NCBI RefSeq assembly: GCF_002585305.1
Contig: NZ_NUNF01000057.1
Span: 460-45,314 of the forward strand
Source of the DNA: Bacillus sp. AFS037270
GTDB taxonomy: Bacteria > Bacillota > Bacilli > Bacillales_B > DSM-18226
Direction of reading: 5' to 3'
Length of the DNA stretch: 44,855 bases
The number at the start of each line of letters is the position of its first letter. The stretch's first letter is position 1. Positions 10,187 to 38,363 of this stretch are shown here, in pieces. The notes beneath the pieces were generated by a model, which was given only the letters and a program-made list of their open reading frames with translations, was not told the origin of the DNA and made no database searches. A program made the translations under genes and the position numbers.

Positions 10187-10675
10187 TTATTGTTTGATTT
10201 TCAAATGACCATTTAATTTTTCGAGTTCATGAAATACGGCTTCATAATCCTCTCTTTTATCTGCCTTAAATGTAGTATTTAAATATGTAATGATTCCATC
10301 TTTATTAACAACAAACACGGACCTAATGGCAGTCCCTCCTTTTTCATTAAAAACAAAATAGTCTTTTACCGTTTGTTTATGCCAATCCGATAATAATGGA
10401 TACGGTAGAGTCCCCATGCTTGCTGCAAAAACCCGATGCGAATGAATATGATCAACGCTAATCGATAAAACCTCTGAATCCGTTTGATCAAACTGTTTAT
10501 AATCCTCTTTCCAAGAGGCTATTTCTTTAATTCAGCCTGGGGTAAAATCCATTCCATAAAAAGCGACGACAATATTTTTCTGGCCGCGATAGTCCGATAA
10601 GGAAATTTTCTCCTTTGTGGTAGCCGGCAGTGAAAAGTCCGGGGCTATTTCCCCCACTTTCAGGGATGCTTCCAT
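10187..10675 (-). CDS. Peroxiredoxin (AhpC/TSA type) with in-frame TGA at the catalytic Cys: candidate selenoprotein
   Basis: From the ATG at 10675 (ribosome binding site AGGAGG, 7 nt away) one frame runs 163 codons to 10187, broken only by TGA at codon 48 (10532-10534). Upstream the protein reads MEASLKVGEIAPDFSLPATT, then LSDYRGQKNIVVAFYGMDFTPG, the peroxiredoxin motif in which the next residue is the peroxidatic Cys. After the TGA the thioredoxin fold continues normally (SVDHIHSHRVFA, YPLLSDWHKQTVKDY, IRSVFVVNKDG) to the end. The protein has no other Cys, so the enzyme could work only if TGA is read as selenocysteine (a 1-Sec peroxiredoxin reducing peroxides). A hairpin fitting a bacterial SECIS follows the TGA. 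The alternative is a recent Cys-to-stop mutation, which would make it a pseudogene. No sel genes are in the window. Confidence 0.72.
10504..10518 (-). promoter_or_regulatory. SECIS-like hairpin downstream of the in-frame TGA
   Basis: On the coding (minus) strand CCTCTT-GGA-AAGAGG forms a perfect 6-bp stem with a G-starting 3-nt loop. The first loop G is 20 nt after the TGA. Bacterial SECIS elements are small hairpins inside the coding region with a G among the first apical-loop bases, about 16-37 nt from the UGA. Geometry fits; function is not shown. Confidence 0.5.
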
Positions 10676-10923
10676 GTTGTGTCCTCCTAACCATAGTGTA
10701 ATGAATAAACATTTTACTCTTTATGTATAGTTACCATAATGGCTGGATTTAGACAGAACAAATGTAAATCCTAAATAATGAAGTTCATTTTTACATAACC
10801 TGTAAGATGAAACGCTTCCATTTAATTTTTTTAAAATATCTTTCCTTCGCGGGGTAAAATTTATTTTCCGAAAATTGAATCTATGTTATAGTCAAATAAA
10901 CAAAAACAGATGGAGTGAGAAAA

Positions 10924-37849: not shown

Positions 37850-37996
37850 ATAGATTATCGTATAGTAAAAAAGACCGAGCATGACGACAAATATGGCTCG
37901 GTCATGCAATAGCTGCTTTCCTTTTTGGGGATCGGCGTTATGGACCATAATCCACCGCTTCTGCTTGCCGGCTCAAGGGTGGATTATTTTTTTTTG
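37850..37996 (+). ncRNA. Candidate antisense (antitoxin) RNA convergent to the holin-like toxin
   Basis: A plus-strand intrinsic terminator is clear: ATAATCCACC (37947-37956) pairs with GGTGGATTAT (37978-37987), then eight T. It lies across the 3' end of the toxin gene. A possible promoter upstream is TTTTCC-N18-TATAAT, with the -10 at 37838-37843. The implied RNA of about 150 nt would overlap the last ~125 nt of the toxin mRNA. The boundaries are inferred. Confidence 0.5.
37867..37903 (-). terminator. Terminator of the toxin mRNA
   Basis: On the minus strand GACCGAGC and GCTCGGTC (8 bp, perfect), followed by TTTTTT. It lies about 80-110 nt past the toxin stop codon, which gives the mRNA a long structured 3' UTR. 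Confidence 0.8.
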
Positions 37997-38113
37997 TGGA
38001 AGGACAGAATCGTGACAATGAGACTAGCAAACGATAAGCTAAACATCAATGCCTGAAAAACTGTCAAAAGCATCACCCCCTTTCTATTAGGAGATGTGCC
38101 GTCCACCCTTGAG
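37972..38113. repeat. 12-bp inverted repeat flanking the toxin gene
   Basis: CTCAAGGGTGGA (37972-37983) and its exact complement TCCACCCTTGAG (38102-38113). In the toxin mRNA these lie in the 3' and 5' UTRs and could pair, closing the message. The antisense RNA would carry the same sequence as the 5' UTR and could compete for the 3' UTR segment. Confidence 0.75.
37984..38073 (-). CDS. Putative holin-like toxin (type I TA, 29 aa)
   Basis: Begins MLLTVFQALMFSLSFASLIV and ends with SFHKKK: a single hydrophobic segment followed by a lysine tail, as in the Hol_Tox (holin-like toxin) family, where VFQALMLMISF-type sequences are common. AAAGGGGGTG precedes the ATG directly. Such peptides insert in the membrane and are controlled by antisense RNAs. 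Here the gene has a strong promoter, complementary 5' and 3' UTR segments and a convergent terminator for an antisense RNA, all as expected for a type I toxin-antitoxin locus. Toxicity is inferred. Confidence 0.8.
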   Translation of the reverse strand: MLLTVFQALMFSLSFASLIVTILSFHKKK

Positions 38114-38135
38114 AAAACTATGCTATTGCATGTTC

Positions 38136-38164
38136 ATTATAGCATTAATCAAATTATCGAACAA
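38136..38164 (-). promoter_or_regulatory. Sigma-A promoter of the toxin gene
   Basis: On the minus strand TTGTTC (38159-38164) and consensus TATAAT (38136-38141) are spaced 17 bp. Transcription would start near 38129 and give a 5' UTR of about 56 nt. Confidence 0.75.
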
Positions 38165-38171
38165 GCGTTCT

Positions 38172-38363
38172 TTAAATATTATGTTTATTACAATATGCAT
38201 CCACTAATTCCTCGATTTGATCCAGTTCAGGATATTTTCCGGAAAACTGAAATTGGATTTCTTCAATAAAGCTCTCTCGATTATACACATGAATCGCTCC
38301 ATTTTGTTGGATGACACTATATTCTGGTACAAATCGGTATCCACTTCGTTCAATTGCCCCCAT
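38172..38363 (-). CDS. Small protein (63 aa), YbxH-like
   Basis: Begins MGAIERSGYRFVPEYSVIQQ and ends in ELDQIEELVDAYCNKHNI; AAAAGGGG precedes the ATG at 38363 by seven bases (an in-frame TTG lies one codon upstream). Soluble, mixed alpha/beta, with no known function. It resembles the small Bacillus protein YbxH by memory. A repeat array lies upstream, between this gene and ppdK. Confidence 0.75.
   Translation of the reverse strand: MGAIERSGYRFVPEYSVIQQNGAIHVYNRESFIEEIQFQFSGKYPELDQIEELVDAYCNKHNI

Follow-up and report, generated by a model that had tools for sequence, protein, structure and literature searches.

A probable selenocysteine-containing, AhpE-like peroxiredoxin in Bacillus sp. AFS037270 and related Bacillaceae

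Bacterial peroxiredoxins with a TxxU motif, in which U is selenocysteine (Sec), have been catalogued under PF00578 (PMC13188914) and COG1225 (PMC9312934), and for this type both sources cite work on Eubacterium acidaminophilum and its Sec-peroxiredoxin (Sohling 2001). Sec-peroxiredoxins are given as 91 proteins in 78 organisms in PMC5029168, and a 2006 count lists three selenoproteins of three families for the Bacillales (PMC1794560); a Sec-peroxiredoxin of Bacillales may already be among these three. The statement in an earlier note on the DNA described here that such proteins are known in other bacteria agrees with these catalogues. For the bacterial SECIS element, PMC13188914 gives a model with an apical loop of 3-9 nt, an upper stem of 4-16 bp, a G in the first two loop positions, a distance of 16-37 nt from the UGA, and an energy of -7.5 kcal/mol or lower. 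AhpE of Mycobacterium tuberculosis is, according to PMC8945050, reduced by mycothiol or mycoredoxin. Among the titles and abstract openings listed from the open-access literature, for Bacillaceae, Neobacillus, Mesobacillus, Fictibacillus and Bacillus as well as for Sec-peroxiredoxin names, none concerned the family treated below.

The window, by which we mean the whole stretch of 44,855 nucleotides of Bacillus sp. AFS037270 that was analysed, is collinear over 10 kb with Bacillus sp. ISL-18 (L003; 84.5% identity). It carries on its minus strand a gene of 163 codons (162 residues, then a TAA stop) in which a sole TGA stands at codon 48, in the context AFYGMDFTPG-TGA-IKEIASWKEDY (Table 1). We consider it about 95% probable that this is a selenoprotein gene; judged from the comparison with relatives, the UGA would be decoded with the help of a hairpin and SelB, giving an AhpE-like peroxiredoxin of 162 residues with one selenium. 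The earlier note had described this frame with its single TGA, leaving the strand unstated, and had placed the TGA at the peroxidatic Cys codon, which is borne out by the alignment with the AhpE Cys. Its remarks on a good ribosome binding site, a normal stop with a terminator, and the absence of any other Cys likewise hold: the frame contains no Cys codon at all. The Pfam AhpC-TSA match covers residues 7-131 and thus runs across the TGA. The motif around the TGA reads GxxxTxxU in place of a complete PxxxTxxC/U; the Pro position is occupied by Gly in 48 and by Pro in 18 of the 66 aligned rows of the family, which count one gene twice (L047 = L118). Arg118 was located by pattern in 65 of these rows, and Thr45 and Arg118 are presumably catalytic residues, as in other peroxiredoxins. 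The nearest protein is that of Bacillus sp. USDA818B3_A (92%); together with the collinearity noted above, this points to a source organism that is probably related to Neobacillus.

Table 1 Features of the probable Sec-peroxiredoxin gene and its flanks (positions in the window)
Feature	Position	Strand	Basis
Probable Sec-peroxiredoxin gene, AhpE-like	10187..10675	minus	57/57 loci of relatives with TGA at this codon; 115.8 bits with Pfam AhpC-TSA
Codon 48 (TGA), probable selenocysteine codon where the peroxidatic Cys would be	10532..10534	minus	alignment to M. tuberculosis AhpE (Cys)
SECIS-type hairpin CCTCTTGGAAAGAGG	10504..10518	minus	comparison among relatives
Ribosome binding site AGGAGG	10683..10688	minus	direct reading; 7 nt to ATG
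Terminator-like hairpin of 14 pairs past the stop codon	10145..10176	minus	
Codon for Thr45, within the motif (P/G)xxxTxxU	10541..10543	minus	invariant in alignments A1 and A2
Codon 118, Arg aligned with an AhpE Arg	10322..10324	minus	invariant in alignments A1 and A2

A scan of the window for frames joined across a TGA, with at least 35 codons before and at least 50 after it, lists 13 cases, including the gene in Table 1. The remaining 12 consist of 11 that overlap longer open reading frames and one (37913-38266, plus strand) that overlaps a match to the BsrG RNA family. This BsrG match lies at 37876-38130 on the minus strand and scores 94.6 bits, with a gathering score of 55.

For the comparison with relatives, the window gene and its close homologues are called family A, and a second Sec-peroxiredoxin with the sequence PLDWTPVU is called family B. 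Genome contigs were scanned with the patterns SWKEDYK and AFYGMDF, which exclude the catalytic residue and thus do not select for TGA. The catalytic codon was TGA in all 57 loci found and in none TGC or TGT, a verdict that is based on translations with U after FTPG in each case. This speaks against a chance nonsense mutation, which according to the earlier note would hit this codon only rarely, and the inspection of homologues that the note had suggested comes out in favour of a selenoprotein. Another check from the note, for further disabling lesions in relatives, yielded a frameshift in a single locus (L055). This locus is on the chromosome of Neobacillus sp. SuZ13, and the frameshift, in the second half of the gene, reflects either loss or a sequencing error. 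The gene of L048 ends at a contig edge, and six loci (L005, L024, L034, L045, L047 and L054) have an additional TGA at the gene end, which is taken as the normal stop.

A similar distribution was obtained with 193 genomes from the family of Neobacillus drentensis (G002). Family A was represented by 51 matches below 1e-60 in 50 genomes, each with one TGA, followed by a group of 17 family-B matches (3e-37 to 4e-34) that likewise contain a TGA; in addition, an internal TAA is present in three of these matches for family A and in 10 for family B. Most of the weaker matches listed (E >1e-26) have no stop, two have a TGA (G066, G029) and two a TAA. In a class-wide sample of 398 genomes, 63 gave a match with an E-value of at most 1e-30, and a TGA was present in 33 of 67 matches, four of which belong to family A; the codon was inspected in 22 of these 33. 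The 18 weaker or class-wide matches without a stop for which the codon was inspected all have TGC or TGT. Viral contigs were searched for relatives and gave none. Plasmids gave a single match, from Planococcus lenghuensis, also with a TGA. On this plasmid, typed as mobilizable, the family-A gene (L089:2937-3422, minus strand) is annotated as one gene across the TGA, so some full-frame annotation does exist.

The earlier note had also proposed a SECIS hairpin behind the TGA. Such a hairpin, CCTCTTGGAAAGAGG, is indeed present, with 6 bp and a GGA loop or, when the U-A pair is left open, with 5 bp and the loop UGGAA, and its apical loop sits 18-19 nt past the TGA. It agrees with the model in PMC13188914 in loop, stem and spacing, whereas its energy of -7.1 kcal/mol for segments of 36-48 nt (-9.2 for 60 nt) is narrowly short of the -7.5 given there. 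By itself the hairpin is not telling, a point on which the earlier note claimed too much: for 48 nt the z value is -1.69 and 13 of 200 shuffled sequences are equally stable, and among 5000 synonymous recodings of the window sequence 435 fold as well and 359 retain the full 6-bp stem. A search of the hairpin region against Rfam gave four matches, none at its gathering score. The window hairpin is thus not significant from a single sequence, and its significance comes from comparison.

This comparison included 60 of 61 genes, the frameshifted L055 being left out. The loci share a near-universal stretch after the TGA, NCC TCT TGG AAA GAG G. At codons +5, +6, +8 and +9, the third base is identical in 59 of the 60 genes, and at +7 (Trp) in all of them, while the amino acid encoded by +5 can be Ala, Thr or Ser and in one case is Leu. 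Other codons are mostly variable, with +3 (GAA in 58/60) and a few more also being steady. The single exception at the hairpin third positions, L051, has two pairs changed on both sides in a compensatory manner. The more distant genes L120 and L121 change the stem again, and in L121 Ser is replaced by Leu and Glu by Arg, yet the stem is kept. Over the 47 distinct sequences, 99.6% of the cells form a standard pair, as compared to 66-67% when the pairings are slid by 1-3 columns. Changes on both sides were found in four of the six pairs (six cells), a level reached by none of 500 shuffles. All of these changes come from L051, L120 and L121, which form one branch of the tree, so the compensatory events may be few; in L009, the outermost pair is broken.

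For 50 of the 57 loci (all except L005, L029, L048, L051, L052, L053 and L057), the genome was searched for the capacity to incorporate Sec. The models for SelA, SelB, SelD and tRNA-Sec were each over their cut-off in 50/50, including the three nearest relatives of the window (G001-G003), which have the full set. Among 14 control genomes, SelA was found in E. coli only, and SelD and SelB in E. coli and M. jannaschii; the tRNA-Sec model is less specific, being over its cut-off in five of the 14. In the set of 193 genomes, SelB is present in 48 of the 50 family-A genomes, and the two without it (G120, G161) are metagenome bins, those of L005 and L048 by match coordinates. Since SelB is common in this bacterial family (170 of the 193 genomes, with or without family A), its co-occurrence with the gene is weak evidence: 48/50 against 122/143 for family A, with p = 0.03 uncorrected for relatedness, and 55/57 against 115/136 when genomes with family B are counted in (p = 0.013).

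The idea in the earlier note of an isolated case does not hold, since the TGA is a family trait and its hosts have other candidate selenoproteins: SelD in 50/50, with 51 matches that all contain one TGA (in B. taeanensis, where its place was examined, in the context KGGUGCK), a formate dehydrogenase match with TGA in at least 42/50, and sometimes a second peroxiredoxin with TGA. In Bacillus taeanensis, the family-A gene is flanked by a Sec-type selD and an OsmC-like gene, separated from either by a single gene, on a contig that also carries selA, selB and the tRNA-Sec gene (selC). The OsmC-like gene (L046:6326-6847, minus strand; Pfam OsmC 52.1 bits), about 2.6 kb from selD, itself has an in-frame TGA (GGULVGTL); OsmC-like selenoproteins are already catalogued in PMC13188914. 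Genome G028 has a second, diverged family-A gene (L107, on G028:C63) as well as a second selD match, on G028:C56, which lies about 12 kb away from the first family-A gene of this genome.

Could the window gene nevertheless be a decayed gene, with a nonsense mutation or a sequencing error that happens to fall on the catalytic codon? A lone stop in a frame that is otherwise whole might have arisen recently, and among the relatives L055 carries a frameshift in the second half of the gene. This would leave unaccounted for that 57/57 loci from separate genome records have the same TGA with only that one frameshift among them, that synonymous positions around the hairpin are near-fixed, and that stem pairs change in a compensatory manner. 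We regard a pseudogene as extremely improbable, and in our view these three observations already refute it.

Two further readings draw on entries in protein databases. A protein search gave 108 relatives, one of which is the piece from the window itself, and 47 of the 108 were inspected. At the TGA position, 23/23 near full-length close relatives inspected (at least 57% identity in A1) have a W; these are P0002-P0023 and P0026, all from metagenome contigs of 705 to 2352 bases. Four full-length but distant relatives (P0072, P0074, P0075 and P0076; 37-48% identity) have a Cys. The W residues might suggest that the UGA is read as Trp or by a near-cognate tRNA, or that termination is a regulated outcome, in either case without selenium. 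We infer that they were produced by a gene caller using a code in which TGA is Trp. Moreover, the Sec machinery in 50/50 genomes searched, the SECIS-type hairpin with its compensatory changes, and the TGA in the SelD (50/50) and formate dehydrogenase (at least 42/50) matches of the same genomes all argue against such read-through, and Trp is not known to act as a redox residue in the peroxidatic position. We judge this reading very unlikely. The records of named isolates that were inspected are, in 10/10 cases, C-terminal pieces of 90-109 residues, most of them starting a few codons from the TGA, as if the part downstream of the TGA were a functional gene of its own. Such a piece would have neither the catalytic residue nor the N-terminal third of the fold, whereas the upstream part is conserved too, the predicted fold uses both parts, and the Planococcus plasmid record gives one gene across the TGA; there is hardly any chance that the pieces are separate genes. 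Thus, a selenoprotein gene remains the preferred reading.

In a tree of 76 rows, which contained no AhpE, the 24 family-A rows group together with support 97/96, and family B (12 rows, support 67/63) is apart from them with Cys rows in between. The Cys peroxiredoxins of which the codon was inspected fall on branches other than family A. Family B has TGA at the same codon in all 35 loci extracted (L090-L106, L122-L137, L156 and L157); in the 193-genome set, 10 of its 17 genomes also have family A and seven do not. Among solved structures, the best sequence match of the window protein is M. tuberculosis AhpE (E 2.8e-22), and AhpE chains are also among the best PDB matches to the predicted fold (mean pLDDT 93.8 with a 49-row alignment), with TM 0.85-0.86 over about 152-156 columns. 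Two 2-Cys peroxiredoxin chains hold ranks 1 and 2 of this fold search by E-value, and Bcp4 has a TM equal to that of AhpE. A first structure model, based on a 24-row alignment, was set aside, having a mean pLDDT of 68.3 and values under 50 for residues 44-54.

With respect to mechanism, the comparison among relatives indicates that the hairpin after codon 48 would recruit SelB with Sec-tRNA-Sec during translation, and that the UGA would then be decoded as selenocysteine instead of stop. By analogy with other peroxiredoxins, Thr45 and Arg118 would activate Sec48, which would attack hydrogen peroxide or organic hydroperoxides and be converted to a selenenic acid. Since the window protein has no Cys, this selenenic acid would have to be reduced by an outside thiol. 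Our guess is that the reductant is bacillithiol with bacilliredoxin, in the way mycothiol or mycoredoxin acts on AhpE, with thioredoxin as an alternative. The matched stretches are free of Cys in 52 of the 66 family-A rows and contain 1 to 4 Cys in 14, so that the resolution step may differ in some members, for instance in Fictibacillus. A broader proposal is that family A is all-selenium, existing in Bacillaceae and neighbouring families in the Sec form alone with no Cys ortholog, and providing a selenium-dependent peroxide defence in which the single Sec is recycled by bacillithiol. We offer this tentatively, with somewhat less than even confidence.

Family A is of interest because it appears to be widespread and to occur with Sec alone. 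Since 10/10 inspected named-isolate records are truncated pieces, it is probably absent from inventories of the peroxide defence of genera such as Neobacillus, Mesobacillus and Evansella. A small peroxiredoxin with one selenium, which in the window is Cys-free, could be a clean system for comparing Sec and Cys catalysis. It also raises the question why none of the searched genomes showed a family-A gene with Cys.

Regarding its relation to known systems, family A shares with family B the peroxiredoxin domain and the TGA at the same codon, but it is found in a separate part of the tree and differs in the sequence after the TGA. With AhpE (Rv2238c, a 1-Cys enzyme) the window protein has in common a single catalytic residue and the lack of a resolving Cys; it differs from AhpE in having Sec at the Cys position and Gly at that of the motif Pro, at an identity of 34-35%. 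The catalogued bacterial Sec-peroxiredoxin resembles the window gene in its peroxiredoxin domain, in Sec for the peroxidatic Cys with TxxU spacing, and in the in-frame UGA with a downstream hairpin. It differs in that the window protein has Gly for the motif Pro and scores 82.6 bits with the PrxU equivalog NF040737, under the curated cut-off of 270, and in that the hosts of family A are Bacillaceae and neighbouring families. Thus, TxxU Sec-peroxiredoxins as such are catalogued already, and the window gene is, by sequence comparison, a new, AhpE-like and apparently Sec-only branch of them.
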